Assembly (NCBI RefSeq): GCF_029542205.1 | Contig: NZ_CP113783.1 | Location: 983,001-1,047,000 of the forward strand | From: Pseudoxanthomonas sp. SE1 | GTDB taxonomy: Bacteria > Pseudomonadota > Gammaproteobacteria > Xanthomonadales > Xanthomonadaceae | Length of the DNA stretch: 64,000 bases | Direction: 5' to 3' | Shown: positions 18,969 to 34,810 of the stretch, piece by piece | How positions within the stretch are numbered: position 1 is the first letter of the stretch | Layout: each line of letters begins with the position of its first letter | Position numbers and translations under genes: made by a program | Notes under the pieces: generated by a model | What the model saw: the letters and a program-made list of their open reading frames with translations, nothing else | What the model was told of the DNA's origin: nothing | The model's database searches: none

Positions 18969-20612
18969 TCAGTACACGTCGCGTCGGTAGCGGCCGTCAC
19001 CGCGCAGTTGCTCGACCCTGTCGTCGCCGAGTATCCGGCGCAGCGCGGCGTCCACGTCCGGCGCCATGCCCGCCAGGCTGCCGCACACGTACAGGGCGGC
19101 ACCTTCGTCGACCCACTGGCGAAGGCGCTCGGCCTGCGCCAGCAGGGCGTGCTGGACATACCGGTGTCCGCCTTCATCGCGGGAGAAGGCCAGGTCGAGG
19201 TGTTCGAGCGCACCTTGTGAACGCCATGCCATGAGTTCGTCGGCATGGAACAAGTCGCGGGTTCGCTGGCGTTCGCCGAACAGCAACCAGTTCCGGCTCG
19301 CTCCCGCCCGCATCCGTGCCTTCACGTGCGCGCGCAATCCCGCCAGCCCCGTGCCGTTGCCTATCAGCACCATCGGCACCCGCGCTGCAGGGGGATGGAA
19401 GTTGGGATTTTTCCGGATGCGCAGCGCGATCGTTTCGCCAGGTCGGGCATGCCGGCACAGCCATCCGCTACCGAGTCCGGGCGTACCGTCCGCGCGCTGC
19501 ATCAGGCGAACCAGCAGGTGCAGCGCGCCATCTTCGGGTATCGACGCGATGGAGTACTCGCGATGCGGCAGCGGCACGCAGCCGTCAACGAACGCCTGCG
19601 GGTCAACAAGCAGGGGCGCTCCGGCCGTTGAGGGCCACTGGCTGCCTGCGAGTGCGTCGGCCAGCGTCACCCGGTCGCCCTGCCAGTCCACGACCGCATC
19701 GCCCTGCAGGCCGTAGGCAAGCAGGAGAGCCTCAACATCGGCGACGGCGTGTCGTGGACCGATCTCGGCAATGTCGCCGGCGGTCCATGCCGGCATCGTG
19801 CCCTCAACGGGCTCCAGCGAAAGATGGAATACGGGGCCGCCGAGGCTTCCGGGATTCAATTCGATGCGCTCGCGCAGTCGCCAGGATTCGTAGCGTGGCG
19901 TCGACCAGTCGGGCATGTCGGCGCCATTGCCGAGCTGGCCGATGTGGTGCTGCCAATGACGCAGCGCGCTGTCGTCGGCGTTGTCCACCTCGACGATGTC
20001 GAACAGTGGTTGCGCACCGTGGCGGCGCAGCCAGTCGTCCAGTTGATGGCCGAAAGCGCAGAAGTGCGCATACTCACGATCGCCCAGCGCAAGCACCGCG
20101 TACTGCAAGCCTGCCAGCGAAAGCGATTGCGGCATCACCCGACGCACGAAGCCCAGGGCGGGGTCCGGCGGATCGCCTTCACCGGTCGTACTGACCACGA
20201 AGACCGCGCGGGTCATGCTCTTCAGCCTGACCGCATCCAGGTGCTCGAGTCCCGCGCGTTGCACGGCCACGCCGCTGTGGCGGAGCGAGGCGGCGGTCAG
20301 GTCGGCCACTTCCAGCGCGAAGCCTGTCTGACTGGCATGCACGACCCACACCGCATCCTGCACGGCCTGCGCGCTGGGCTGGGCGTCGCGCAGGCGCATG
20401 CGGGCGCGTTGCAGGAACCAGGCCGTCAATCCCGCGTACGCAAGCAGCGCTGCCGCAGCGGCATATCCGCGTGCCGCCGATGGCGTGGCCAACCACCAGT
20501 CGCCCTCGTGCAGGCGTGCGAACAGCCACGCGCATGCGGCCAGCAGCAGGATCGCGACCGTGTTGCCCAGCAGTGGAGCGATTCCGCGCGAGGGAGCAGG
20601 AGACGCGCTCAT
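18969..20612 (-). CDS. membrane-anchored flavodoxin/NAD(P)H oxidoreductase
   Basis: A 547-residue flavoprotein built like the reductase half of sulfite reductase or cytochrome P450 reductase. Two N-terminal transmembrane helices (about residues 17-33 and 46-63) are followed by a flavodoxin-like FMN domain (HASQTGFALEVADL, then VVSTTGEGDPPD and LALGDREYAHFC), an FAD-binding beta-barrel (HREYSIASIPEDG) and a nicotinamide-binding domain (MVLIGNGTGLAGLRAH, ALYVCGSLAGMAPDVDAAL). It should take electrons from NAD(P)H in the cytoplasm and pass them to a membrane partner. I start at the ATG that overlaps the apbE stop (ATGA). It is the last gene of the iron-linked cluster; its likely acceptor is the PepSY protein at 23116. 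Confidence 0.9.
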   Translation of the reverse strand: MSASPAPSRGIAPLLGNTVAILLLAACAWLFARLHEGDWWLATPSAARGYAAAAALLAYAGLTAWFLQRARMRLRDAQPSAQAVQDAVWVVHASQTGFALEVADLTAASLRHSGVAVQRAGLEHLDAVRLKSMTRAVFVVSTTGEGDPPDPALGFVRRVMPQSLSLAGLQYAVLALGDREYAHFCAFGHQLDDWLRRHGAQPLFDIVEVDNADDSALRHWQHHIGQLGNGADMPDWSTPRYESWRLRERIELNPGSLGGPVFHLSLEPVEGTMPAWTAGDIAEIGPRHAVADVEALLLAYGLQGDAVVDWQGDRVTLADALAGSQWPSTAGAPLLVDPQAFVDGCVPLPHREYSIASIPEDGALHLLVRLMQRADGTPGLGSGWLCRHARPGETIALRIRKNPNFHPPAARVPMVLIGNGTGLAGLRAHVKARMRAGASRNWLLFGERQRTRDLFHADELMAWRSQGALEHLDLAFSRDEGGHRYVQHALLAQAERLRQWVDEGAALYVCGSLAGMAPDVDAALRRILGDDRVEQLRGDGRYRRDVY

Positions 20613-21601
20613 GCCGCGAGGTGCCGCTCGAACGCAGGCGTCTTCGCTTCCTGCAGGCCTTGCGCGGAGCGTTGCAGGAAGCGCGCTGCCAATCCGTGGC
20701 GCGCTGCGAATGCCCGGCCAGCGGTTGCCCCCATCACGGTCAACGCGGTCGCCCACGCATCGGCTCGCATGGCATCGGTCGCGACTACGGTGACCGCTGC
20801 TGCGGCATCGGTCACCGGTTCGCCACTGCGCGGATCGATGGTGTGCGAGTAGCGGCGACCTTCATGCGCATAGGCATGCCAGCGGTCACCTGAGGTCGCG
20901 ACCGCCACGCCATCGAGGGTGAGCACACGCGGCTCCAGGCCCTCGCTGTCCGCTTCTTCATCCGGCGACGACTCCACCAGCACGCGCCAGGGCTGGCCGT
21001 CCAACTTGCGACCATAGCCGTACAGCTCGCCGCCGACTTCGACCAGCGCGCTGTCGATGCCGCGATGGCGCAGCAGCGCGGCGACGACATCCACGCCGTA
21101 GCCCTTGGCGATGGCCGACAGATCGAGCATGAGGCCGCCGGGCTGCCTGATGCGGCGTTGGTCGGCATCGAAGCGGAGATGCTGCCAGCCAACGCGCGCG
21201 CGCGCCGCGACGAGATCGGCCGGCGTCGGACGTCCGCGGGCGCCGGCATGCGCGCCAAAACCCCACGCGGCCACCAGGGGCGACACAGTCGGATCGAAAG
21301 CGCCCTCGCTGGCGGCCGCGATCTCGAGCGCTGCCGTCAGCACGTGCAGGACGTCGTCCTGCAACGCGAACCATTCTCCCGCCATGCCGCGGCCGAAGCG
21401 CATGATGTCCGTATCCGCATGCCACGTGCTCATCTGTGCCACGACCTGATCCAGGCGCGCCTGCACCGCGTCGTGCAGTGTGTGGAGATCGAGGCGCGTC
21501 TCGCTGACGCATTGCACGGACCAGGTGGTGCCCATGGTCTGTCCGTGCACGGCCTGCACGGGCGATGGAGGCGCGGAGAGCGGGGAGAGGGAAACGTTCA
21601 T
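20609..21601 (-). CDS. apbE: FAD:protein FMN transferase ApbE
   Basis: An enzyme that splits FAD and attaches FMN covalently to a threonine or serine of a target protein. The 330-residue product has the family motifs GQTMGTTWSVQ near the start, DPTVSPLVAAWGFG, LMLDLSAIAKGYGVDVVA, ALVEVGGELYGYG, RRYSHTIDPRSGEPV and the metal-binding DAMRADAWATAL. I start at the ATG at 21599-21601, after the upstream stop. No signal peptide or lipobox precedes the domain, whereas many ApbE proteins are periplasmic lipoproteins; this copy may therefore act in the cytoplasm or be misstarted. Its probable target is within this cluster: see the DUF2271 protein. Confidence 0.93.
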   Translation of the reverse strand: MNVSLSPLSAPPSPVQAVHGQTMGTTWSVQCVSETRLDLHTLHDAVQARLDQVVAQMSTWHADTDIMRFGRGMAGEWFALQDDVLHVLTAALEIAAASEGAFDPTVSPLVAAWGFGAHAGARGRPTPADLVAARARVGWQHLRFDADQRRIRQPGGLMLDLSAIAKGYGVDVVAALLRHRGIDSALVEVGGELYGYGRKLDGQPWRVLVESSPDEEADSEGLEPRVLTLDGVAVATSGDRWHAYAHEGRRYSHTIDPRSGEPVTDAAAAVTVVATDAMRADAWATALTVMGATAGRAFAARHGLAARFLQRSAQGLQEAKTPAFERHLAA

Positions 21602-21610
21602 TCGGATACG

Positions 21611-21636
21611 CGCCGCCGGATGCCTGTCCGGCGGCG
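21611..21636 (-). terminator. intercistronic hairpin between the DUF4198 and apbE genes
   Basis: A 10-bp perfect G+C stem (21611-21620 with 21627-21636) and a 6-nt loop in the 44-bp gap between two cotranscribed genes. Without a T tract it is more likely to slow decay or attenuate transcription than to terminate it fully. Confidence 0.5.
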
Positions 21637-21645
21637 CCATGCGCA

Positions 21646-22461
21646 TTACTGCGGCAGCACTTCGAGCGTGGCCACGTAGGTCAGGCGACGCTGCCGGGCC
21701 TGCGGTACCGACGTCCTGTCATCTTGCGTACCGGTTTCGAGCCAGTACATGCCGGCTTCCGGCCAGGTCACGCTGAACTCGCCGCGGGCGTCGGTGGTGA
21801 CCTTGATCTCTTCCTGCGCGTTGCGGTAACGCGTGCCGCCGCGCGTGATCTCGAATTCCAGGCCGGCCGCGGGCTTGCCGTCGACCAGCATGCGGAACGT
21901 GGCGGCTTCACCTGCGAACAGGTCGTTCGGGTGGGTCACCGGCACCAGTTCGATCCCTTCCCCCGTGCTCTTCAGCGCGGTGTCGTTCGGCGCCCCATTG
22001 GTCACGAACGTTTCGATGCGTCCGATCGACTGCGATACCTGCAGGTTCTTGGCGTCCTTCGGTACCTTGGTCGCCAGGTCTTCGGGCTTCGCGCCTCGCA
22101 GGCCACCCGGCTTTCCGTCGGCGCCCTCCCAGCGAACCATCAGGTTCTTGTTGACCGTGGCGATGCGGTAGGTGCCCTGCTGTTTCAGCTCGATATCGAA
22201 CACCGTGCGGTACTTGCCCGTGGCGAGGTTCTGCGCCCCGGCGGTGGACCCATCCGGCGCGGTGATGACCAGGCCTTCGGTGCGCAGCGGCACGTGGTTG
22301 AAGTAGAACAGGTCGTTGGACACCGCGGCGTCCACCGTGATCCAGGGGTTGGTGCCGGCGATGACGGTCTGCGACGGCTGCAGCCACGCCTTGTGCGCCA
22401 GCGCGGAGAACGGCGTCGTTACGGCGAGCGAGAGGGCGAGGATCAGGGCGTTGCGTTTCAT
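21646..22461 (-). CDS. DUF4198 exported protein
   Basis: A 271-residue periplasmic protein with a clear signal peptide ([22 protein letters not shown]) and a mature start [14 protein letters not shown]. It matches DUF4198, a family of immunoglobulin-like proteins with a histidine at the mature N-terminus, often found near metal-transport genes. A GGAG lies 5 bases before the ATG at 22461; a longer in-frame start at 22521 has no such support. A second domain from about residue 190 ([33 protein letters not shown]) resembles a carboxypeptidase-regulatory fold. I infer it helps bind or present metal in the iron-reduction cluster. No enzymatic residue pattern is evident. Confidence 0.85.
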
Positions 22462-22492
22462 TGGAATCTCCAGCGATGTGGGATGGGGGTGC

Positions 22493-22552
22493 AGGAGGGG
22501 CTTCAGTTCCGATCGCTTCACGCGGAAAGCGATCAGGACTGAAGCCCCTCCT
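22493..22552. repeat. long inverted repeat between the DUF2271 and DUF4198 genes
   Basis: Two 26-nt arms (22493-22518 and 22527-22552) pair almost perfectly, with an 8-nt loop. The core AGGGGCTTCAGT resembles the head-palindrome layout of REP elements. It separates two cotranscribed genes and could act as an attenuator or an RNase-protecting structure. Confidence 0.75.
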
Positions 22553-22559
22553 CTGCAGG

Positions 22560-23090
22560 TCAGGGCTTGACGGTGAGCGTGACGGCGCCCAGTTCGGTGG
22601 CGCCCTGCGCCTTGCCCGACTGCGGTGCGCCCTTGGCGGGCCAGGTGAAGGGGATCTTGAGCAGCTCACGGCCGCCGACTTCGCGCGCGGCTTCGACGAC
22701 CAGCGTGTACTGGCCGGGTGCCAGCTTGGCCAGGTGCTGCTTGTCGCTGAAGCTCAAGGCGTGCTTGCCGACCGGTTTGGTGGGCCCCGTCACGCCATCC
22801 ACCGGCACCTTCAGCGCGCGGCCGGACTTGCGCCACCACTGGCGCATGTCCGGCAGCCACTTGGTGCCATGACCTTCAGAGTTGCTGGTCTGCTGGTACC
22901 AGACGGAGAGGTTGGCGGCGACCTTCTGGTCCGCGCCTTCGATCCACACGGCGACGTAAGGACGGTGGTACTCGGCCACGTTGAGTTTCGGGATCTCGAC
23001 ATTGACGTCGAGCGTGGCGGCGTAGGCCGGCGTGGCCAGCAGGCCGCTGAGCGCGATGGTCAGCGTGGTGTAGACGGCGATCTTCGACAT
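22560..23090 (-). CDS. DUF2271 exported protein with possible FMN-attachment motif
   Basis: A 176-residue periplasmic protein: signal peptide to about residue 24 (cleavage AYA|ATL) and a DUF2271 domain ([68 protein letters not shown]). The fold is probably an immunoglobulin-like sandwich. Residues 98-104 read DGVTGPT, close to the ApbE flavinylation consensus D-x-x-[ST]-G-A-[ST], with Pro in place of Ala; Thr104 would be the FMN-bearing residue. An apbE gene lies two genes downstream. This makes it the best candidate for a covalently flavinylated electron carrier between the PepSY membrane protein and iron. The flavinylation itself is inference. Confidence 0.85.
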
Positions 23091-23115
23091 GCGGGGTTCC
23101 GGGTAGGGGAAAGGG

Positions 23116-23751
23116 TCAATGGATGAAGAGCAGCGCGATCAGCAGCGGCACCAGCAGGCCCAGGCCCACCATCGGCCACGTCATGCGGCGCTGCCGGCCA
23201 TGCAGGTAGAGCAGGAACAGGCCGGTGATGCAGAACACCAGGCAGGCCACCGCGAAGATGTCCAGGAACCATCCCCACGCCGGCCCGGCATTGCGACCCT
23301 TGTGCAGGTCGTTGAAGTAGGAGATCCAGCCGCGGCTGGTCCGTTCGTACTCGACGGCTCCGGTTTCGCGGTCGATGCTGAGCCATGCATCGGTCCCCGG
23401 GCCCGGCATCGAGAGATACAGCTCCATGTCGGACCATTCCGCGGGTCGCGTGCCGATCGATATCGACAGCTCCTGCTCCAGCCAACCGCCAACGGCCGCA
23501 GGCAGCGGTGCATTGCCTTCCTGCCGGGCGCCCAGGGTGGCGAGGACGGGTGCAGGAAGGGTGGCGGTAAGGTTGGTGACCTGGGGCGTGGCTTCGATCT
23601 TCGCGGCGTGGTTCAGCGTGATCCCCGTGATCGCGAACAGCAGCATGCCGATCAGGCACACCGCCGAACTGATCCAGTGCCACTGGTGCAACGTGCGCAG
23701 CCAGAAGCCACGGCGTTGTTGCTGGAGGGCTGGGGAAGCGGGAGGGGACAA
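23116..23751 (-). CDS. PepSY-associated transmembrane protein, probable haem-binding electron carrier
   Basis: A 211-residue inner-membrane protein. Helices lie at about residues 26-47, 160-183 and 193-211, with a periplasmic PepSY-type domain between the first two (GAPLPAAVG region to [34 protein letters not shown]). Histidines H22, H25, H48, H150 and H184 sit at or near the membrane faces, the placement used for haem b in PepSY reductases such as FoxB-like proteins. The only start in this frame is a TTG at 23749-23751 without a good ribosome binding site. A Fur-like box lies 42 bp upstream. It heads the sub-operon PepSY-DUF2271-DUF4198-apbE-flavoreductase, fitting a role in ferric reduction. 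Confidence 0.85.
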
Positions 23752-23792: not shown

Positions 23793-23811
23793 ATAGATGA
23801 GAATGGCTCTC
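23793..23811 (-). promoter_or_regulatory. possible Fur box before the PepSY operon
   Basis: ATAGATGAGAATGGCTCTC matches 10 of 19 positions of the Fur consensus and has the inverted GAGA/TCTC core seen in many Fur sites. It lies 42-60 bp upstream of the leftward PepSY gene. Confidence 0.4.
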
Positions 23812-23818
23812 AATTGAG

Positions 23819-23859: not shown

Positions 23860-26241
23860 TCAGAAGCTGACGTTGAGGCTCAGCCACAGGTTCCGCGACT
23901 TGTCCTTATTGTTGTAGTCGTCCAGGTACGACACCTCGTTGGAGGTGTAAATGCCGTCGTTGTCGAGGTCGCTGAAGACCGTCTGGAAGGTGGTGAAGTC
24001 CTCGTCGAGCAGGTTGTTGATGCGGCCCGATACCGAGACGTGGTCGTTGAAGCGGTACTGCGCGCCCAGATGGAGCACGGTGTAGTCCTGGTAGTCGCGG
24101 CGCACGCCATTGAGGGTGTCGCGATAGCGCTTGGATCGGGCTTCCGCCAGCAGCTGCAGGCTGAAATTCGCGGTCGCCTGCCAGTTCAGGCTGGTGTTCG
24201 CCATGTGCCGGGCGGTATTGGTCAGCGGAAGACCCTTCTGCGCACCACTCAGCTGCTCGCTGTCGGTAAAGGTGTAGTTGGCACGCAGCGACACGGTCTC
24301 CGTGATGCCCCAGCGCCCGGCGATCTCCACGCCCTGGATGCGTACTTCATCGATGTTGATGTTCTGCGCATACGTCGTATAGCCCAACAGCGCGTAGTCA
24401 CCGAGGTTGGCGCAGGGGCGCGTGCCGCCCGTCTGCTCGCAGCTCTGGCTGCTCTCGCCGCGCGCGATCTTGTCGTCGAAGTCGTTGCGGAAGACGGTGA
24501 CGTTGAAGTTGTGCGCGTCGTCCGGCGAGGTCCAGTACAGCGCGATCTCGCCGTTGACGCTGGTCTCGGGCTGCAGGTCCGGGTTGCCGACGAAGGGCGT
24601 GGTGCCCTGGCCGCCGAAGCCGGTGATGCCGTCGTACAGGTCGGTGGTCTTGGGTGTCTTGAAGCCGGTGCTGACGCCACCCTTCAGCGTCCATGCTTCG
24701 CTGATATCCCACACGGCATAGGCGCGCGGACTGAGTTGGCTGCCGAACACGCTGTGGTCGTCATGGCGCAGCCCCAGCGTGATGGTCAGCGCATCGAGCG
24801 GATTCCAGTTGTCCTCGGCGAACAGCGACCACATCTTGTGCTCCTGCACGGTACCGCCGCCATCGCCGCCGCCTTCCATGCCGAAGACGCCGTCTTCCAG
24901 TTCGCCGTCGATCAGCTGGCCGCCCACGACGAAGCGATGGGTATCGCCGACGGCGAAATCCAGCTTCGCATCCAGCGTGTACTGGCTGCTCTCCATGGTG
25001 CGCTTGGGGCGCGGCAGGAAGGTGTCGATGGCCAACTGCTGGCGCTGCGCGCGGGTCTGTCCGGCATAGGGACCCGTGGCGCAGGTCGCCGCGTTGTTGC
25101 AATAGATGTCCCGATGCAGCAGTCGCTCGGCCACCGTGAAGGGCAGCGTGCGGCCGTGATTGCCGGTGTCGATATGCGCCAGCGACACGAAGCTGGTGCC
25201 GAACGCCCACTGGCCGTTGTGCGTGATCGACCACTGGTCGCGGGTGAACTCCTGGTCGGCGGCATAACCGACCTGCGGCGCCGCGCGCCAGATGCCCGCC
25301 AGGCCGTCCACGGTGCCCAGCGGATAGGTTTCGGTGCCGAGGTTGTTGATGTACGGCGTGTTGTCGTACACATGTTCGGAGGTGTCGTAGTCGAACATGA
25401 CGCTCTGGTTGTCCGTCGGCGTCCAGCTCAGGGTCACGCCCGCGCTCTTGTTGGTGTTGTCCACCGTCTTGCCACCACCGCCGAAGCCCAGCGAGCGCTC
25501 GAAGATGGTGCCATCCGGCGCGGTGATCGCTTCATATTCGGGCGTCGACGCATTGCGCTCGTACCAGGAGCCGCGAACACCCAGGCCCAGGCGATCCTTC
25601 ACCAGTGGTCCCATCAGGGCGAAGTCGAACGTGCTGTCGCTGCCGAAATCGCTGTTCTCCTGGATGCCGTGGCCCAGCGTGGCCGACCCGCGCCAGCGAT
25701 CGGACACCTTGCGGGTGATGATGTTGATCACGCCACCCAGCGCGTCGGCGCCATACAGCGTCGATGCGGGGCCGCGGATGACTTCGATGCGCTGGACCAT
25801 GTCCAGCGGCGGAATGTGGTTGAACTGGTTGCCGCCGAACGAGTTCGGGTAGATGTCGCCGTGGTTGTTCTGGCGCTTGCCGTCGATGAGGATCAGCGTG
25901 TAATCCGGCCCCATGCCGCGGATGCTGATCGTCTTCTGCCCGGTCTTGTCCGAGGTTTCGCCGACATCCACGCCCTCCAGGTCGCGCACCGCATCGATCA
26001 GCGTGATGTAAGGGCGCTGCCGCAACTCCTCCGCCGTGATCACGCTGATGCTGGCGGGCGCATCGGTGATCTTCTGTTCAAAGCCCGAGGCGGTGACCAC
26101 GACGGTATCGAGATCGGTGGCATCCGCCGCGCCGTCCGGCGCAGGCTGTGCGAGCACGGGAGCGGAGGCCAGGGCGAGAAGGGCAACGGCAAGGCGATTG
26201 CGGCGCAGCGGCGCCTGCAGGGAGCTGCAAGAAGGATTCAT
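23860..26241 (-). CDS. TonB-dependent outer-membrane receptor (catecholate-siderophore type)
   Basis: A 793-residue outer-membrane protein. After a signal peptide (APVLAQ) comes a TonB box-like DTVVVTAS (about residue 43), a plug domain (GFEQKITDAPASISVITAEEL, RGMGPDYTLILIDGKRQNN, VQRIEVIRGPASTLYGADALGGVINIIT) and a 22-strand barrel ending LWLSLNVSF with the terminal aromatic needed for assembly. The plug segment RGMGPDYTLILIDGKR resembles FepA/IroN-type receptors for ferric catecholates. The substrate is inferred only by family. The start at 26241 follows the conserved mature region; no clear Shine-Dalgarno is seen. A small exported protein gene precedes it, with a Fur box before that. Confidence 0.93.
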   Translation of the reverse strand: MNPSCSSLQAPLRRNRLAVALLALASAPVLAQPAPDGAADATDLDTVVVTASGFEQKITDAPASISVITAEELRQRPYITLIDAVRDLEGVDVGETSDKTGQKTISIRGMGPDYTLILIDGKRQNNHGDIYPNSFGGNQFNHIPPLDMVQRIEVIRGPASTLYGADALGGVINIITRKVSDRWRGSATLGHGIQENSDFGSDSTFDFALMGPLVKDRLGLGVRGSWYERNASTPEYEAITAPDGTIFERSLGFGGGGKTVDNTNKSAGVTLSWTPTDNQSVMFDYDTSEHVYDNTPYINNLGTETYPLGTVDGLAGIWRAAPQVGYAADQEFTRDQWSITHNGQWAFGTSFVSLAHIDTGNHGRTLPFTVAERLLHRDIYCNNAATCATGPYAGQTRAQRQQLAIDTFLPRPKRTMESSQYTLDAKLDFAVGDTHRFVVGGQLIDGELEDGVFGMEGGGDGGGTVQEHKMWSLFAEDNWNPLDALTITLGLRHDDHSVFGSQLSPRAYAVWDISEAWTLKGGVSTGFKTPKTTDLYDGITGFGGQGTTPFVGNPDLQPETSVNGEIALYWTSPDDAHNFNVTVFRNDFDDKIARGESSQSCEQTGGTRPCANLGDYALLGYTTYAQNINIDEVRIQGVEIAGRWGITETVSLRANYTFTDSEQLSGAQKGLPLTNTARHMANTSLNWQATANFSLQLLAEARSKRYRDTLNGVRRDYQDYTVLHLGAQYRFNDHVSVSGRINNLLDEDFTTFQTVFSDLDNDGIYTSNEVSYLDDYNNKDKSRNLWLSLNVSF

Positions 26242-26350
26242 GGCATTTGTCGAAGTGGGGAAGGAGGGCTTGGCGCACACGCGCACAGGCGCTGACGCCG
26301 GAGGACGCAGGAAGGGTCCGGACGGCCGTGTCTGGCACGAACCAGGGGCG

Positions 26351-26803
26351 TCAGGCAGCGTGCGGCGGAGCTTGGCCCGGATGCAGGCGCAGGGCAGGAT
26401 CGGTGCGATGGGCGTGCACGGAATCCGCCGGAGAGGAGCGACGTGCGAAGTCGTCACCCGATGGGACGGCGTCGCCATCGCCGTGACCGAAGACCAGCGA
26501 CGCACGCGCGTGCAACGCCCGCAGCGTGCAAACCTGCAGTGCCGCCAGCCGTGGCTTCTTCAGGTGCAATCCGCGATGGCGCACCTCGCGGGGCGGGTCG
26601 CCCCGGTGCGCGTCGGCCATCGCCCACGATGGGGCCGTGGCGCGGGTGGTCGCCGTTTCGACAGGCGTCGTGTGGGCGGCGGCGGAGCCGATGGCCACGC
26701 AGAGCATCATCAGGGCCAGGAGCACCGACAGCCAACGCCATGACGACGCGCGATGGCGTGGTGCGCAGGTCTGGCGGGCAGTGACTGGCAAGGCGTGGAT
26801 CAA
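26351..26803 (-). CDS. small exported protein preceding the TonB receptor
   Basis: A 150-residue frame with an N-terminal basic region, a hydrophobic helix (RWLSVLLALMMLCVAIGSAAA, about residues 23-43) and a histidine-rich remainder (HRGLHLKK, FGHGDGD, SVHAHRTDPALRLH). The only start in frame is a TTG, which lowers confidence. It sits between a Fur-like box and the receptor gene on the same strand. A similar arrangement occurs at 30058-30429, so a small secreted or membrane-anchored partner of TonB receptors is possible; the histidines hint at metal binding. I do not recognise the family. Confidence 0.45.
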   Translation of the reverse strand: MIHALPVTARQTCAPRHRASSWRWLSVLLALMMLCVAIGSAAAHTTPVETATTRATAPSWAMADAHRGDPPREVRHRGLHLKKPRLAALQVCTLRALHARASLVFGHGDGDAVPSGDDFARRSSPADSVHAHRTDPALRLHPGQAPPHAA

Positions 26804-26851: not shown

Positions 26852-26870
26852 TTAAATGAGAATACTTATC
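26852..26870 (-). promoter_or_regulatory. Fur box before the first receptor operon
   Basis: TTAAATGAGAATACTTATC matches 13 of 19 positions of the Fur consensus and stands out as an AT-rich patch in G+C-rich DNA. It lies about 50 bp upstream of the leftward small-protein and receptor genes, so iron-replete repression of this operon is expected. Confidence 0.7.
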
Positions 26871-26875
26871 AAATG

Positions 26876-26910: not shown

Positions 26911-27597
26911 TTACGTCTCCGCCCACTGCCTCAGCAGGTTGTGGTACACGCCGGTCAGCTGGACCAGTGCGGGATGGTCGGGAACGTCGGCCGTCACGTG
27001 GCGGATCGCGACATCCAGGTCGAACATCAGTCGCCGCTGGCCGTCGTCGCGCACCATGCTCTGCATCCAGAAGAAGGACGCCACGCGCGTACCCCGCGTC
27101 ACCGGGGTGACCTTGTGCAAGCTGGTGCCGGGATACAGCACCATGTGCCCGGCCGGCAGCTTCACGCTCTGCATGCCGAAGGTGTCTTCGATGATCAGTT
27201 CGCCGCCGTCGTACTCGTCCGGCGCGCTGAGGAAGAGCGTGGCCGACAGGTCGGTCCGTACGGGATCCACGCCGCCACGGCTGCGGTCGTAGCGGATGGC
27301 GTTGTCGACGTGGTAACCGAACGACTGGCCGCCGCCGTATCGGTTGAACAGGGGGGGATAGATGCGCTTGGGCAGCGCCGCCGAGAAGAACGTGCTGTTG
27401 CGCGCCAAGGCATCGAGGACCATCGCGCCGACATCGCGCGCAGCAGGTGAATCCTCCGGCAACTGCGCATTGTCCTTGGCTTTCGCTGATTGATAGCCGG
27501 CCGTGATGCGGCCATCGGCCCAGTCCGCCGCATCGAGCATGGCGCGTGCCTGCGACACCTGTGCGGCCGTGAGGACATCCGGAATCGCCAGCAGCAT
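26911..27597 (-). CDS. piuC: Fe(II)/2-oxoglutarate dioxygenase PiuC
   Basis: A 228-residue PKHX-type hydroxylase (PiuC/YbiX), typically Fur-regulated and encoded beside catecholate or hydroxamate receptors. The double-stranded beta-helix core is visible: HVDNAIRYD supplies the His and Asp iron ligands, [13 protein letters not shown] follows, and the distal histidine is in [17 protein letters not shown], followed by the 2-oxoglutarate arginine (ASFFW after TRGTR). The likely role is in handling siderophores or their breakdown in the cytoplasm, but the true substrate is not established. It lies 77 bp downstream of the second TonB receptor, separated by a 13-bp hairpin. Confidence 0.93.
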
Positions 27598-27619
27598 ATC
27601 GAACTACCTCGGAATGAAG

Positions 27620-27650
27620 CCACCCCGTCCATTGTGCATGGACGGGGTGG
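27620..27650 (-). terminator. perfect hairpin between the second receptor gene and piuC
   Basis: A 13-bp perfect stem (27620-27632 with 27638-27650) with a 5-nt loop and no T tract on the minus strand. Its place between two cotranscribed genes suggests partial termination or protection of the receptor mRNA, giving less PiuC than receptor. Confidence 0.65.
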
Positions 27651-27674
27651 ATGGGAACTACCGCATGGTGCCGA

Positions 27675-29927
27675 TCAGAACTTGAACGTCGCCGTCAGCA
27701 CGGCGGAGCGGGCCGCGCCCGGGGTCGCCCAGCCGTTGTTGCGCACGCGGGTGAAATACGCCTTGTCGAACAGGTTGTCGATGTTCAACTGCAGTCCGAA
27801 GCGTGCATTGAACTGGTAACCCGCCATCGCCCTGTGCATGGTGTAGCTCTTCACGCGCGGGGCATTGGCCGTACTCGCCGTGTAGAAGTCGCCCTGGTAG
27901 GTGACGCCGTAGCCGAACGTCCAGCCCTGCAGCGCGTAGGTGGTCCAGGCACTGGCCGAATGCTCCGGCGTATTCGGCAGCGGATTGCCTGCCTGGGCAT
28001 CGATGCCGGTGGTCTCACGCACATGGTCCGACACGCTCTGCAGGACTTCGCTGTCCAGATAGGTGTAGTTGGCGAAGATCGACCAGGCGCGGGTGATGTT
28101 GCCGGCCACACCCAGTGCGATGCCGTCCACGCGCGCCTTGCCATCCAACTGCTGCGTACCGGAGGGGTTGTCCGGGTTGCTGGGGTCGGCCACCTTGTAG
28201 TTCTGGCGTTCGTTGCGGAACAGGGCCGCGGTCACCGCCAGCCTGTCCTGCAGCAGATTCCACTTGGTGCCCAGTTCGATGTTGACTGCGGTCTCCGGAT
28301 CGACCTCGCAAGTCGCTGCATTGCAGGCTCCGTTCACGGATGCCTTCGATGGCGTCTTCGAGTTGGCGTAGGACAGGTAGACACTGCCATTGTCCGCTGG
28401 CTTGAAAAGCAGGCCTGCGCGGTAGGAGAACAGGTCATCCTCATTCCTGAGGGTGGGGCCGACGGTGATGGCGCCGCCCGCGGCGGGCGTGGCAAAGCTC
28501 AGTGTGCGCGTATCGCCTTCGTTGTGTTCGTATCGCGCGCCCAGTGCGAGCTCCCATCGTGGACTGAACTTCAGGGTGTCGAACGCGTAGAGCGCCTGGT
28601 TGTCCAGCGTGCCGTCCGTGTGCCCTGTGCGGATGTAGTTGACCGGCCCCGTGTACACGTTATTCGGGTTGTGGATGTCCATCACCGGATAAACAGGAGC
28701 CGTGCCGTCGGCGTTGCGCTGGGTATTGCCGTTGTCCAGTTCGTAGGTTTCGTGCATGAACGAGACTCCGGCGACCAGTGCATGCTCAATACGGCCGGTG
28801 CTGAATCGCGTGGTCAGGTCGGTCTGGCTGAGCGCCAGGCCGTTCGTCGTGTCGCGGGTCGTTCCGCGCGGGCCACTGGGCTGGTACGTTCCCGGCGAAG
28901 CACACGGCTGACCGTTGGCCGGGTTGACGCCGCTGTCGAGACACCAGGTGCCCTGGGTCGGATTGACCACCGTGTACTGGTCCACCTTCTGATAGCGGGC
29001 CAGGCTGCGCAGGGAGGTCGTGTCGCTGAAATCATGCTCGAACACGCCCGTCAGCACGTCGACATCGATCTCCTGCGTGTCCATGTTGCGGTAGCCGAAG
29101 TAGGCTTCACGGCTGACGCCGGGCAGCAATCCGCCATAGGCCGCGAAATAGGGCAGTCCGTATTCCGGAATGTTCTCGTCGTGCTGGTGCAGGTAGCTGA
29201 GCGTGAAGCGGGTGTCCGAGCCGAGGCCGATCGCGAATGAAGGCGCAATGCCCCAACGCTTGTATTCCTCGACATCCCGATCGGGCACGTCGTTGCGATG
29301 GATCATCGCATTCACGCGCAGCGCCTGGCCCTCGCCCAGGTCGGTATTGCTGTCCACGGTTGCCCGACCGAAGCTGTCCGTGCCGGCACCCAGCGTGAAG
29401 GTATTGAAGTCGCCTTCCCTTGCCATCTTGCTGACCAGGTTGATGTTGCCGCCCACCGAGCCCGCGCCCGACATGGCCGAATTGGCGCCGTTGATCAGTT
29501 CGATCGATTCGAGATTGAAGTTGTCCGTGCGGGTGTACTGGGCACTGTCGCGCACGCCGTCCACGGTGATGTCGGTGGTGGCGTTGAAGCCGCGCAGGTT
29601 GATGCTGTCGCCATAACCGCCGCCGCCTTCGCCGGCGCCGAAGGTGATGCCGGGCAACGTGCTGAGCACGTCCCTCAGCCCGAGCAGGTTCTGCTGCGCC
29701 ATCACCTCACTGGTGACCACAGTGATGGTCTGCGGCGTGTCGAGCAGTTCTTCGGTGTACTTCGGTGAGCTCGCTTTCTGCACGCGTTCACCGTGCACTT
29801 CGACGGTATCGAGCTCCTTGGCCTGCATGGCCGCGTCGGCGGGCGCATCGCCGGCCGGGGCGGCGAAGGCAGGTGTGGTGATGGCCAGCAGCAGGGCAGT
29901 GGCGAGGGGAGAGTGGCGCAGGTTCAT
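27675..29927 (-). CDS. TonB-dependent siderophore receptor (Fiu-like)
   Basis: A 750-residue outer-membrane receptor. Signal peptide to about residue 23 (TPAFAA), then the plug (ELDTVEVHGERVQKAS, TPQTITVVTSEVMAQQNLLGLRDVLSTLPGI, INLRGFNATTDITVDGVRD, ESIELINGANSAMSGAGSVGGNINLV) and a barrel ending AARSAVLTATFKF. The plug style and the adjacent piuC match Fiu/CirA-like receptors for monomeric catechols and catechol conjugates. I start at the ATG at 29925-29927 because GAGGA lies 5 bases upstream; an ATG two codons earlier is possible. Iron control is expected from the Fur box at 30481. Confidence 0.93.
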   Translation of the reverse strand: MNLRHSPLATALLLAITTPAFAAPAGDAPADAAMQAKELDTVEVHGERVQKASSPKYTEELLDTPQTITVVTSEVMAQQNLLGLRDVLSTLPGITFGAGEGGGGYGDSINLRGFNATTDITVDGVRDSAQYTRTDNFNLESIELINGANSAMSGAGSVGGNINLVSKMAREGDFNTFTLGAGTDSFGRATVDSNTDLGEGQALRVNAMIHRNDVPDRDVEEYKRWGIAPSFAIGLGSDTRFTLSYLHQHDENIPEYGLPYFAAYGGLLPGVSREAYFGYRNMDTQEIDVDVLTGVFEHDFSDTTSLRSLARYQKVDQYTVVNPTQGTWCLDSGVNPANGQPCASPGTYQPSGPRGTTRDTTNGLALSQTDLTTRFSTGRIEHALVAGVSFMHETYELDNGNTQRNADGTAPVYPVMDIHNPNNVYTGPVNYIRTGHTDGTLDNQALYAFDTLKFSPRWELALGARYEHNEGDTRTLSFATPAAGGAITVGPTLRNEDDLFSYRAGLLFKPADNGSVYLSYANSKTPSKASVNGACNAATCEVDPETAVNIELGTKWNLLQDRLAVTAALFRNERQNYKVADPSNPDNPSGTQQLDGKARVDGIALGVAGNITRAWSIFANYTYLDSEVLQSVSDHVRETTGIDAQAGNPLPNTPEHSASAWTTYALQGWTFGYGVTYQGDFYTASTANAPRVKSYTMHRAMAGYQFNARFGLQLNIDNLFDKAYFTRVRNNGWATPGAARSAVLTATFKF

Positions 29928-30057
29928 GAGCATCCTCAGGTGCGGTGAAGGAATACCCGGTGGCGAAGGCTGGCGGGAAGTGATGGAGACGGGTCGACCC
30001 CGGTCGGCGCAAGGATCGGAAAGCAGCGGGGGGCGCCGACGGGTGCGGCGCACGCGG

Positions 30058-30429
30058 TCAGGCGTAGGGCGGTCCGCGGCCCGGGTGGCGGATGTCGCGC
30101 GGCGGTGCCGTGTCGGTGTGACCACCAACGCCAGCGCGTGTCCGGGACAACACCGGCCCGGAGGCGGGCGGGACGATGGCGTCATCGCCTTCGCACTCCG
30201 CCGGCACGGGCGGGCTTTCCGTTGCCGGCCCCACCAGAGCGGCGGACGCAGTGTGCATGTCGTCCCGCAGGTCGGACAGAGCATCGTGCTGGGATGGCGT
30301 TGCCGATGCGCTTCCGGTCTGGGCGACCATGTCGGAGATGAACCAGTGCGAGCTGCCTGCCAGCACGAGCAGGCACGCCAGCAGCAAGCTGGCGAACATG
30401 GTCGGGAAAGGGCGGGTCTCGCGCAGCAC
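30058..30429 (-). CDS. small membrane-anchored protein preceding the Fiu-like receptor
   Basis: A 123-residue frame with one N-terminal transmembrane helix (MFASLLLACLLVLAGSSHWFISDMV, about residues 11-35) and a Pro/Ala-rich acidic region with one cysteine (PAECEGDDAIV). It lies directly downstream of the Fur-controlled promoter at 30479 and 130 bp upstream of the receptor gene, so it is probably the first gene of that operon. I do not recognise the family. It could be a leader gene or a receptor accessory; the parallel gene at 26351 strengthens the case that such a gene is a regular neighbour. Confidence 0.5.
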   Translation of the reverse strand: MLRETRPFPTMFASLLLACLLVLAGSSHWFISDMVAQTGSASATPSQHDALSDLRDDMHTASAALVGPATESPPVPAECEGDDAIVPPASGPVLSRTRAGVGGHTDTAPPRDIRHPGRGPPYA

Positions 30430-30478: not shown

Positions 30479-30507
30479 AGGATAATGAGAATGATTTGCG
30501 ATTACAA
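30479..30507 (-). promoter_or_regulatory. Fur-overlapped promoter of the second receptor operon
   Basis: On the minus strand, TTGTAA (30502-30507) and TATCCT (30479-30484) are spaced by 17 bp. The 19-bp Fur box at 30481-30499 (GATAATGAGAATGATTTGC on the plus strand) matches 15 of 19 consensus positions and covers the spacer and -10. This is the classic layout for repression under iron sufficiency. Confidence 0.8.
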
Positions 30508-31533: not shown

Positions 31534-32787
31534 TTATGCCAGCAGGCTGCGCGCCTTCTTCAGTGCGGCAATGAAGCGCTCCACTTCCTCGTGCGTGTTG
31601 TAGAACGCGAACGACGCCCGCAGCGTGGCTGCCACGCCATAGAACTGCAGCAGGGGGTGCGCGCAGTGCTGGCCGGAACGGACGGCGACGCCTTCAAGGT
31701 CCAGCAGTGTGGCCAGGTCGTGCGCATGGGCACCTTCGATCAGGAACGAGATGACGGCCGCCTTCTCCGGCGCACGGCCGAAGATGCGCAGGCCCTCGAT
31801 CCTGTCCAGTTCCTCGGTGGCGTGCGCCAGCAGTTCAGCTTCGCGTGCCTCGACCTTTTCCATCCCCAGCGCATCCAGGTAGTCGACGGCCGCACCCAGG
31901 CCGATGAAGCCGGCGATGTTGGGCGTGCCGGCCTCGAACTTGTGCGGCGCGTCGTTGAAGACGGTGCCGTCGAAGCTGACTTCCTTGATCATCTCGCCAC
32001 CGCCGATGAAAGGTGGCATGGCCTGCAGGTGTTCCCGGCGTGCCCACAGTGCGCCGGTACCGGTGGGGCCGCACATCTTGTGGCCGGTCAGGGCGTAGAA
32101 GTCGCACCCGATGGCCGCGATGTCCACCGCACGATGCGGCACGGCCTGCGAGCCGTCGACCACAGTGACGATGCCGCGCTTGCGGGCCTCGCGGCAGATC
32201 TCGCGCACCGGGTTGACGGTGCCCAGCACGTTGGAGGTGTGGGTGATGGCCAGCAGCTTCACGTCGCCGGTCATCGCGGTATACAGTGCGTCGAGGTCGA
32301 GCGTGCCGTCGGCGTCGATCTCCGCGACCTTGATGGTCGCGCCGGTACGCTGGGCCACCAGCTGCCACGGCACGATATTGGCGTGGTGTTCCATGCGCGA
32401 CACCAGGATCGTGTCGCCGGCCTTCAGGCGCGGCAGTGCCCACGAGTAGGCGACCAGATTGATCGCGAACGTGGTGCCGCTGCACAGCACCAGTTCGTCC
32501 GGGCGCACGTTGAGGAAGCGCGCCAGCTTCCTGCGCGCGCCTTCGTAGGCATCGGTGGCCTCGGTGCCGAGTGTGTGCACGGCACGGCTGACGTTGGCGT
32601 TGTGTTGTCGGTAGAACGCGTCGACGGTCTCGATCACCGATGCGGGTTTCTGGCCGGTATTGGCGCTGTCCAGATAGACCAGCGGCTTGCCGTTGACCTG
32701 CCGCGTGAGCAAGGGGAAATCGGCGCGGACACGCGCCCAGTCGATGCCGGTCTCCGCTGCAGGCAGGTGAACGGTCTCGTGGTTCAT
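31534..32787 (-). CDS. sufS: SufS cysteine desulfurase
   Basis: A PLP enzyme (417 residues) that removes sulfur from cysteine for Fe-S cluster assembly. The type II desulfurase signatures are present: SRMEHHANIVPWQL (about residues 125-138), the PLP-binding lysine in YALTGHKMCGPTGTGALW, and the active-site cysteine in VRSGQHCAHPLLQFYG near residue 370. Its sulfur acceptor, SufE or SufU, is not in this window. The start overlaps the sufD stop by 4 bp. It is the last core gene of the SUF operon. Confidence 0.96.
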   Translation of the reverse strand: MNHETVHLPAAETGIDWARVRADFPLLTRQVNGKPLVYLDSANTGQKPASVIETVDAFYRQHNANVSRAVHTLGTEATDAYEGARRKLARFLNVRPDELVLCSGTTFAINLVAYSWALPRLKAGDTILVSRMEHHANIVPWQLVAQRTGATIKVAEIDADGTLDLDALYTAMTGDVKLLAITHTSNVLGTVNPVREICREARKRGIVTVVDGSQAVPHRAVDIAAIGCDFYALTGHKMCGPTGTGALWARREHLQAMPPFIGGGEMIKEVSFDGTVFNDAPHKFEAGTPNIAGFIGLGAAVDYLDALGMEKVEAREAELLAHATEELDRIEGLRIFGRAPEKAAVISFLIEGAHAHDLATLLDLEGVAVRSGQHCAHPLLQFYGVAATLRASFAFYNTHEEVERFIAALKKARSLLA

Positions 32788-34046
32788 GCCGCGCCCAACG
32801 TCGCCAGCGCCGCATCGACACGCGCCACCAGCAGGTCGCGCAGGCCCGCGTCCTCGATGACCGACAGCGGTTCTCGGCAGAATGCGGCCGTGAGCAACTG
32901 CTGGGCTTCCGGCGCGGACAGGCCCCGGGAGCGCAGGTAGAAGAGCGCATTGGCTTCCAGTTGGCCGACGGTGGCGCCATGCGCCGCCTTCACTTCGTCG
33001 GCATGGATCTCGAGCACCGGCTGGGTGTCGATCTCCGCGTTGTCGGAGAGCAGCAGGTTCTTGTTCGACAGCGCTGCGTCGGTGCCGTCAGCACCCTCGC
33101 GGATCAGGATGCCGCCGTGGAAAACCGCGCGGCCACGACCGGCACCCAGGCCGCGCCACGTCAGCTCGCAGGCGGTATCGCGGGCGATGTGGTCGATGCC
33201 CAGGCGCGTGTCCACGTGGCGGCGACCGTGCGCCAGCAGCACGCCGTTGGCGATCAGGCGCGCGCCGTTGCCTTCGAGGCGGACATTCAGTTCATGGCGC
33301 GACAGGCCGCCATCGAGCTCCAGGTCCACGCGACGGTACTCGGTGTCGCGGGCCAATACCGCGTCGGTGCGCAGCAATGTGGTGGCGCGCGCGCTGTCGG
33401 CTTCGACGCGCGCATGTGTCAGGCGGGCGCTCTGCGCAAGGTGCACATGGCTCAGGGCGTTGATCAGGTGTGCATGCGCACCGATGGCGACATGGTGCTC
33501 GACCACGGTCAGCGCGGCGCCGGCGCGCAGTTCGATCAGGTTGCGCAGGTGCCAGGCACGGTCGGTGCCGTCTTCGGCGCCGATGAAGACCAGGTGCAAC
33601 GGCTGTTCGCTGCGCGTACCTTCCTCGGCGCGCAAAAGGACGCCTTCGGTGGCGAGCGCGGCGTTGAGGCGGGCGAACACTTCCTCGCCGCGCTCGAAGC
33701 GGCGCTGCAGGAAACGCGCAGCTTCGCCTCCCTCGGCCAGGGCTTCGGACAGCAATTGCAGGGTGACGCCATCGGGCAGGTCGGTGGTCAGCGACAGCGC
33801 GACGGAGTAGCGGCCGTTGACGAACACCGCACGCGGTGCCGGGATGTCGGCCAAGACCATCGGGTCCACGGTGGGCGCGGCGTCCACGCCGGCGAAGCTG
33901 CGACGCTCCAGCTGGCGCAACGAGGTGTACTTCCACGCTTCCGTACGCGGGCCGGGCAGGCCGTCGCGCAGGGCTTCGTCCAGTACGGTGCGGCGCGCCG
34001 CGTCGCCATTGAAGCCGGCGGACAGGGAATCCAGCAGCGCGCTCAT
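32784..34046 (-). CDS. sufD: Fe-S cluster assembly scaffold protein SufD
   Basis: A 420-residue beta-helix protein that pairs with SufB in the SufBC2D scaffold. It has the family features EAWKYTSLRQLERRSF near the N-terminus, and AHGATVGQLEANALFYLRSRGLSAPEAQQLLTAAF near the C-terminus containing the functionally important histidine region. I start at the ATG at 34044-34046 because it overlaps the sufC stop by 1 bp; a longer frame to 34085 would run into sufC. The C-terminus ends SVIEDAGLRDLLVARVDAALATL. Confidence 0.95.
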   Translation of the reverse strand: MSALLDSLSAGFNGDAARRTVLDEALRDGLPGPRTEAWKYTSLRQLERRSFAGVDAAPTVDPMVLADIPAPRAVFVNGRYSVALSLTTDLPDGVTLQLLSEALAEGGEAARFLQRRFERGEEVFARLNAALATEGVLLRAEEGTRSEQPLHLVFIGAEDGTDRAWHLRNLIELRAGAALTVVEHHVAIGAHAHLINALSHVHLAQSARLTHARVEADSARATTLLRTDAVLARDTEYRRVDLELDGGLSRHELNVRLEGNGARLIANGVLLAHGRRHVDTRLGIDHIARDTACELTWRGLGAGRGRAVFHGGILIREGADGTDAALSNKNLLLSDNAEIDTQPVLEIHADEVKAAHGATVGQLEANALFYLRSRGLSAPEAQQLLTAAFCREPLSVIEDAGLRDLLVARVDAALATLGAA

Positions 34047-34810
34047 CAGGCGACCTTCTCCGGCGCCACGCGGTCCTTGATCCACGCGTAGCCGTGCTGT
34101 TCGAGTTCCAGCGCCAACTCGGGGCCACCGGTCTCCACGATGCGGCCATTGGCGAGCACATGCACCACGTCCGGCTTGATGTAGTCGAGCAGGCGCTGGT
34201 AGTGGGTGATGACCAGGAAGGCGCGATCGAGCGAACGCAAGGCATTGACGCCCTCGGCGACGTTCTTCAGCGCGTCGATGTCCAGGCCGCTGTCGGTTTC
34301 GTCCAGGATGGCCAGCTTCGGTTCCAGCACGGCGAGCTGGAAGATCTCGTTGCGCTTCTTCTCGCCACCGCTGAAGCCTTCGTTGACGCCGCGGTGCAGC
34401 AGTTCGTCCTTGAGGTGCAGCACGGCCAGCTTCTCGCGCACCAGCTTGAGGAACTGCATGGAATCCAGTTCCGCCTCGCCACGCGCCTTGCGCTGGGCGT
34501 TGAGCGCGGCGCGCAGGAAGTAGGTGTTGTTCACGCCCGGGATTTCGACCGGGTACTGGAAGGCGAGGAATACGCCGGCAGCGGCGCGCTCTTCCGGCTC
34601 AAGGTCGAGCAGGGGCTTGCCTTCGAATTCGATGGTGCCGGCGGTGACTTCATAGCCCTCGCGGCCGGCCAGGATGTTGCCCAGCGTGGACTTTCCCGCG
34701 CCGTTGGGGCCCATGATGGCGTGCACCTGGCCCGGCTTCACGTCGAGCGAGAGGCCTTTCAGGATTTCCTTGCCGGCGACGCTGGCGTGGAGGTTGTCGA
34801 TCTTGAGCAT
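34046..34810 (-). CDS. sufC: Fe-S cluster assembly ATPase SufC
   Basis: A 254-residue ABC-type ATPase that drives conformational change of the SufB-SufD scaffold. It has Walker A GPNGAGKST (about residue 35), the Q-loop in VFLAFQYPVEIPGVN, the signature FSGGEKKRNEI, Walker B LAILDETDSGLD and the H-loop in LVITHYQRLL. The serine/glycine-rich signature and the lack of membrane domains in the operon separate it from transport ATPases. A 156-bp spacer with two hairpins separates it from sufB upstream. Confidence 0.97.
   Translation of the reverse strand: MLKIDNLHASVAGKEILKGLSLDVKPGQVHAIMGPNGAGKSTLGNILAGREGYEVTAGTIEFEGKPLLDLEPEERAAAGVFLAFQYPVEIPGVNNTYFLRAALNAQRKARGEAELDSMQFLKLVREKLAVLHLKDELLHRGVNEGFSGGEKKRNEIFQLAVLEPKLAILDETDSGLDIDALKNVAEGVNALRSLDRAFLVITHYQRLLDYIKPDVVHVLANGRIVETGGPELALELEQHGYAWIKDRVAPEKVA

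Follow-up and report, generated by a model that had tools for sequence, protein, structure and literature searches.

Five consecutive minus-strand genes of Pseudoxanthomonas sp. SE1 appear to form an operon that encodes, in the order of transcription, a PepSY_TM_like_2 membrane protein, a DUF2271 protein, a DUF4198 protein, an ApbE flavin mononucleotide (FMN) transferase and a CysJ-like flavoreductase, preceded by a TonB receptor gene and a Fur-type box. They lie in a 64-kb stretch (hereafter the window, i.e. the whole of the DNA analysed) of a 4.23 Mb single-contig genome. We consider it likely that this operon is an iron-repressed electron-export system in which FMN is probably placed on DUF2271 before export. 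The cluster class is already known; what appears to be new here is a variant that combines an [ST]GPT acceptor motif in DUF2271 with an ApbE that has no export signal.

All five products exceed the curated Pfam cut-offs for their domains, which confirms the five leftward genes and the names given to them in an earlier note on this DNA. The PepSY gene (23116–23751, 211 amino acids; PF16357, 285.8 bits) is followed after 25 bp by DUF2271 (22560–23090; PF10029, 171.2 bits) and, after a further 98 bp that contain a repeated hairpin, by DUF4198 (21646–22461; PF10670, 198.3 bits). DUF2271 has a Sec-type signal, read from its N-terminus with the cleavage site placed by eye, and the exported DUF4198 has a mature N-terminal histidine. 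ApbE (20609–21646; PF02424, 269.1 bits) has no signal peptide, and the flavoreductase (18969–20612, 547 amino acids; Flavodoxin_1 and NAD_binding_1) is membrane-anchored. Profile scans were run on frames 20609–21601 for ApbE, which actually starts at 21646, and 18969–20756 for the flavoreductase, for which the start at 20612 fits better. Because the DUF4198 stop overlaps the ApbE start (TAATG) and the ApbE stop overlaps the flavoreductase start (ATGA), these three genes very likely share one transcript.

We then compared the cluster across relatives, using 86 loci that comprise the best 80 of 530 relatives in named genomes (the 80-locus set) and six further loci. PepSY is present in 86, DUF2271 in 85, DUF4198 in 84, ApbE in 82, the flavoreductase in 81 and a PiuC/YbiX-type gene in 71, some of the misses being contig ends. 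Record titles in the 80-locus set mostly name Xanthomonadaceae genera, with five exceptions: two titled '[Pseudomonas]' (L076 and L083), two titled 'Pseudomonadota bacterium' (L133 and L138) and one titled Bacillus subtilis (L091; JAHREJ010000005.1). The last encodes a DUF2271 with 84% identity and is probably a mislabelled or contaminated record. Among 321 class-level genomes, full-length DUF2271 (>100 bits) occurs in seven, and PepSY and DUF4198 adjoin it in the same order in 7/7; an eighth match over the cut-off is a contig-edge fragment. DUF4198 exceeds its cut-off in 45 of these 321 genomes, including the seven with DUF2271, and DUF2271 does so in 65 of 398 Pseudomonadota genomes. Around 62 DUF2271 matches and six loci, the clusters take several forms: full with a local ApbE, without ApbE, with ApbE-DUF2271 fusions, or of a divergent form that has flavoreductase and ApbE. 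The co-occurrence on which the earlier note staked its proposal thus extends beyond close relatives, i.e. across Gammaproteobacteria and other Pseudomonadota.

The candidate acceptor motif of DUF2271 is DGVTGPT (residues 98–104; 22779–22799, minus strand), which has proline before the acceptor threonine and departs from the canonical D-x-x-[ST]-G-A-[ST]. Thr104 is present in 10/10 rows of one alignment and in 98% of the 52 rows of another. Over the 86 loci the tetrad reads TGPT in 77, SGPT in five, and SAAT, TQPT and SGAT in one each, with one unread (L120); within the window's family, every locus that could be read has [ST]GPT (82/82, of which 79 are from the 80-locus set and three from the six further loci). 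Locus L120 (CP060419.1) has no start-to-stop DUF2271 frame, yet tblastn matches residues 10–171 at 75%, and the gene may be broken. The proline codons read in 80 of 81 sequences (CCG 54, CCC 22, CCA 2 and CCT 2) describe codon spread only, as the search pattern itself requires proline; the sequence missed (L132) has leucine as its third residue.

A near-canonical acceptor motif occurs in DUF2271 alone among the seven proteins encoded locally; a loose match, DFGSDST, lies within the TonB receptor. The genome has one DUF2271 and one ApbE, and FMN_bind, NqrB/RnfD and DUF3570 were searched for and not found in it. Across the four substrate families searched, DUF2271 is therefore the sole candidate for ApbE to act on. 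A PDB search with DUF2271 retrieved no sequence relative, even at E values as high as 1, and its model (predicted local distance difference test score 89.6) has no Foldseek match at E ≤ 0.001, the best row standing at 5.5e-3 with a template modelling score of 0.33. Several of the Foldseek rows, all above E 0.001, are C2 domains.

The residue before the acceptor also varies more widely. In 69 Pseudomonadota rows it is proline in 17, alanine in 51 and glutamate in one, and alanine and proline have switched at least eight times on a tree in which many branches are weakly supported. ApbE and FMN_bind were searched in 53 genomes, leaving out 13 genomes of the divergent form (L214–L225 and L227). 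Every proline row has a local or fused ApbE (17/17) and sits in a genome without FMN_bind (17/17), whereas among the 38 alanine rows in the tested genomes a local ApbE is missing from 19, and FMN_bind is present in the genome for 23. Proline at this position is associated with the FMN_bind status of the genome (Fisher p 1.2e-5; 55 rows, 17 with proline and 38 with alanine, the glutamate row excluded), but the association is lost under tree pairing, in which the independent pairs are too few: the four supported ones never run the wrong way (median p 0.5).

The window ApbE is the only ApbE match in the genome. Its residues S237, G238, H253 and D281, among which we take the catalytic positions to lie, are conserved in 96–100% of 48 rows, and its closest structure is 5mgy. 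We judged export signals by the presence of a charge-free 11-residue window with a hydrophobicity of at least 1.7 after any in-frame start. The best hydrophobic region of the window ApbE from any start reaches 0.58, and by this rule the protein lacks the signal peptide or lipobox of a periplasmic lipoprotein. No signal was found in the 77 loci of the 80-locus set that have an ApbE frame (0/77), and among non-fused cluster ApbEs in the wider set four of 43 reach 1.7, or one of 43 at 1.6 or more by a second measure. Under the same rule, DUF4198 serves as a control with a signal in 53/53, and non-fused DUF2271 proteins, scanned over a slightly different range, have one in 57/64 at 1.7 and 62/64 at 1.6 (exceptions L187 and L226). 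L226, the second DUF2271 of its genome (G433), has no recognisable signal peptide, carries the motif AGAT and adjoins a DUF4198 gene.

ApbEs encoded elsewhere in the genomes present a different picture, with an export signal in 19/20. In genomes whose cluster has no ApbE, the copy sampled elsewhere (one per genome) has a signal in 18/18, and a lipobox-like cysteine is visible in these 18 N-termini; in the two genomes that have both a cluster ApbE and another, the other copy has a signal in one (G275 yes, G694 no). The four ApbE-DUF2271 fusion loci also show a hydrophobic region of 1.7 or more. All 19 tested rows without a local ApbE (18 genomes) have both an ApbE elsewhere and FMN_bind in the genome, as against four of 37 rows with a local ApbE that sit in FMN_bind genomes; this contrast is not significant under tree pairing (two or three supported pairs, median p 0.5). 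Loci L221 and L222, outside these searches, show no local ApbE. Seven signal-less ApbEs from two families (L193, L195, L198, L200, L203, L206 and L207) share an R-V-L-I-P-like stretch before the domain, which is perhaps a docking segment.

Since the cluster ApbE has no export signal while DUF2271 has one, FMN is probably attached to DUF2271 before it is exported. Building on this, we tentatively put forward a wider reading, to which taken as a whole we give somewhat less than even chances. A cytosolic ApbE would flavinylate DUF2271 ahead of Sec, with no need for periplasmic FAD (flavin adenine dinucleotide), and such a dedicated ApbE, with no other substrates to serve, would tolerate the proline that has arisen repeatedly before the acceptor. 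The operon copy would be dispensable where the genome encodes FMN_bind proteins and an ApbE that is exported, so that bacteria would differ in the side of the membrane on which one and the same protein family, DUF2271, receives its flavin.

Several points weigh against this picture of the operon. Flavinylation before export requires that a flavinylated chain pass through Sec. Signal peptides were judged by the hydrophobicity rule and not by SignalP; among the cluster ApbEs, L177 is clearly a lipoprotein, and L208, L167 and L058 are marginal. The TGPT motif might be a poor or dead flavinylation site, given its departure from [ST]GA[ST]; in another substrate, according to a review, an alanine-to-valine change cut flavinylation to about half. 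An ApbE lipoprotein that takes part in thiamine synthesis had to be periplasmic to do so (PMC12052999), and the A. ursilacus apbE used in 2021 was described as 'signal peptide-truncated' (PMC8238504). Finally, a sequence search found no solved PDB relative of the PepSY protein, so that haem binding rests on its conserved histidines and the published FoxB structure (PMC11334425).

An unlikely alternative is that the same iron-reductase chain operates with an ApbE that enters the periplasm without a classical signal, either carried by a partner or through a signal that goes unrecognised, so that flavinylation is periplasmic. This would agree with a 2025 review in which ApbE is typically periplasmic and most characterised ApbEs are lipoproteins (PMC12052999), with the ApbE-less clusters, presumably served by exported ApbEs elsewhere (18/18), and with L177, a cluster of the same kind whose ApbE is a clear lipoprotein. 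It is opposed by the scarcity of hydrophobic regions of 1.7 or more from any start (0/77 and only 4/43), and by the gene layout: in the window, apbE begins before the gene ahead of it has ended, and the ApbE domain starts within 120 bases of the DUF4198 stop in 62/77 loci. The cytoplasmic ApbE of Klebsiella likewise has no signal peptide; it acts on a soluble fumarate reductase (PMC12052999), whereas the presumed substrate in the window is exported. In the passages of text searched, we found no description of a signal-less ApbE beside DUF2271 or of an [ST]GPT acceptor; the DUF2271 logo in PMC8238504 may show proline.

If ApbE accepts proline before the acceptor threonine, the motif used for predicting flavinylated proteins and designing flavin tags becomes wider. 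If an exported flavoprotein receives covalent FMN inside the cell, the question of how ApbE obtains its FAD, which the 2025 review calls still obscure (PMC12052999), would be answered in the case of these bacteria.

The electron path, acceptor residue and flavinylation site that we infer for this operon are as follows. On the cytosolic side, reduced nicotinamide adenine dinucleotide phosphate (NADPH) would reduce the FAD and then the FMN of the membrane-anchored CysJ-like protein, and the PepSY haem protein would pass electrons across the inner membrane. They would reach FMN held covalently on Thr104 of exported DUF2271, which may in turn reduce periplasmic ferric iron, either free or siderophore-bound. 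DUF4198, whose mature chain starts with histidine, would keep or hand on a divalent metal, while ApbE would transfer FMN from cytosolic FAD to DUF2271 in the cytosol, with Sec export to follow. The PepSY protein has three transmembrane helices (27–45, 165–183 and 192–210); H25 and H150 are kept in 51/51 alignment rows and H48 in 90%, and these three are likely haem ligands judging from their conservation. The flavoreductase has CysJ-like flavodoxin and FAD/NAD(P) domains; of the two helices claimed for it in the earlier note, that at 14–32 is clear and the second, at about 49–67, is weaker. The route proposed there, from NAD(P)H through the flavoreductase, PepSY haem and FMN on DUF2271 to ferric iron, is in line both with the model put forward for PepSY-like clusters (PMC8238504) and with the conserved PepSY histidines.

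The operon belongs to these PepSY-like flavinylation clusters (Meheust et al. 2021, eLife, PMC8238504), which number 3,220, with DUF2271 in 2,833 and DUF4198 in 1,500. The class is defined by a PF03929 or PF16357 protein with three transmembrane helices no more than five genes from a target (ApbE, FMN_bind, DUF3570 or DUF2271), at least one target having a signal peptide or lipidation site; in the window PF16357 lies within five genes of ApbE and DUF2271, the target DUF2271 has a signal peptide, read from its N-terminus and judged in relatives by the hydrophobicity rule, and PepSY has the three helices given above. That study showed ApbE-dependent flavinylation of one DUF2271 at [ST]GA[ST] and proposed iron reduction. 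PF16357, DUF2271, DUF4198, ApbE and an iron or TonB link are common to those clusters and the window, as is, in a subset, an NAD-binding partner. By contrast, the [ST]GPT acceptor, the ApbE without an export signal and the separate membrane-anchored CysJ-like NAD(P)H module set the window apart. With thousands of clusters on record, the system cannot be called little-described, as the earlier note had it, and its view that the roles of DUF2271 and DUF4198 had yet to be determined is outdated by DUF2271 flavinylation (2021) and DUF4198 Ni2+ binding (2025). It also passed over the altered motif and the missing ApbE signal.

The operon class has already been tied to iron acquisition. Caulobacter crescentus CC_3059–3063 (CCNA_03155–03159), likened here by description, encodes a transporter, DUF2271, DUF4198, ApbE and a sulfite reductase flavoprotein, i.e. 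five families in the same order as in the window (PMC3751524, PMC12004947). For these Fur-regulated genes, two data columns give increases of about 12- to 51-fold, probably for iron limitation and a fur mutant, the two conditions named in the text (PMC3751524), and transposon insertions in the counterpart reduce fitness in ethylenediaminetetraacetic acid (PMC12004947). An adjacent TonB receptor, such as the window has, is not stated in the passages on this operon. In Alteromonas, DUF4198/DUF2271 pairs are tied to iron-responsive TonB receptors (PMC7190382). P. aeruginosa FoxB and V. cholerae VciB, also likened by description, are PepSY-type proteins of periplasmic iron reduction, as proposed for the window (PMC11334425, PMC8238504); the iron reductase VciB is stated as not associated with flavinylation components, unlike the window PepSY (PMC8238504).

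Iron repression was further assessed from the upstream sequence. The Fur-type box 5' of PepSY (TGAGAATGGCTCTCA, 23798–23812) matches the 7-1-7 consensus at 10/14. Since six sites in the window reach 10/14, it is weak alone, and a scan of the window with the 19-mer consensus did not list it; both forms are those we take to represent Fur sites. Across relatives, a site of 9 or more occurs in 60 of 85 upstream regions, compared with 8.6% of random 260-base segments from the same loci, a contrast that is an upper estimate as the regions come mostly from close relatives, which are not independent, and most of the random segments fall in coding sequence. Low-scoring regions include several Xanthomonas loci. 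The TonB receptor neighbour named in the earlier note is present, and the tie to one particular receptor is loose: 49/86 loci encode a protein related to the window's receptor with a score of at least 300 bits, contig ends being among the misses.

We also analysed DUF4198 for metal binding. Its mature N-terminal histidine, with the cleavage site inferred from AxA|H, is present in 54/54 rows, and H1, H155 and, less so, H34 are candidate metal ligands. IsDUF4198 of I. sakaiensis (PDB 9GCB), 16% identical to the window protein, binds Ni2+ through its N-terminal histidine with a dissociation constant of 18 nM (2025, PMC12537917). Its published second ligand, His18, corresponds to Trp18 in the window protein by plain residue count rather than by residue-level structural alignment, whereas the cluster proteins conserve H155. 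A single-sequence PDB search with the window protein returned Zcp only (E 0.0066 and 0.013); a 16-row profile reached Zcp at 2.3e-12 and did not retrieve 9GCB. The title of the triple-mutant entry of Zcp (PDB 9MHI–9MHO) names H29, H31 and H142; the first two fall outside the alignment, and the column taken as H142, which differs between native and triple-mutant chains, is not histidine in the window protein. A literature search found no paper describing Zcp. A second DUF4198 gene of the genome (C1:2165087–2165779; L053), of AHDLFVAFSKP type and without the operon-type His34 motif, adjoins a long frame that by eye resembles a TonB receptor.

That the operon instead serves nickel, zinc or copper, with electrons reducing Cu(II) or releasing a non-iron metal, is improbable: relatives of DUF4198 do bind Ni, Zn, Co or Cu, as in IsDUF4198 (PMC12537917) and the Zcp structures with Zn, Cu and Co, but the Caulobacter operon is under Fur and induced by iron limitation (PMC3751524), the Fur-type box is kept in relatives, and a PiuC/YbiX-type gene is nearby in 71/86 loci. 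Still less credible is a decayed TGPT acceptor, with DUF2271 unflavinylated and ApbE serving some other cytosolic protein, which would suit the non-canonical motif and the apparently cytosolic ApbE but not the 82/82 [ST]GPT loci with the acceptor threonine kept, the absence from the genome of any further substrate belonging to the four known families, or the retention of ApbE in an operon where it overlaps its neighbours.

The TonB-dependent receptor next to the operon on its upstream side (23860–26505, minus strand; PF00593 and PF07715) is catecholate-receptor-like, and CfrA/IreA/CirA-type models match it below their cut-offs; the coordinates are those of the longest frame, and the true start is probably lower. 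Fur-type boxes lie 5' of both TonB receptors, at 26857–26871 (12/14) and 30481–30499 (15/19 in the 19-mer form, 10/14 in the other). A PiuC/YbiX-type Fe(II) dioxygenase gene (26911–27597, NCBIfam) stands beside the second, TonB-receptor-like frame (27675–30284), and together (26911–30284) they resemble a piuA-piuC or cciT-cciO pair, the receptor being recognised by eye. Next to these iron-uptake genes, frames at 31534–34085 resemble what we take to be the SufS cysteine desulfurase and SufD of Fe–S assembly. Within the operon, the hairpin between DUF2271 and DUF4198 (22493–22552; 26-nt arms, 92% complementary) is a genome repeat resembling repetitive extragenic palindromic elements, with 24 matches at 13 separate places including the operon copy, both strands of the palindrome being counted.

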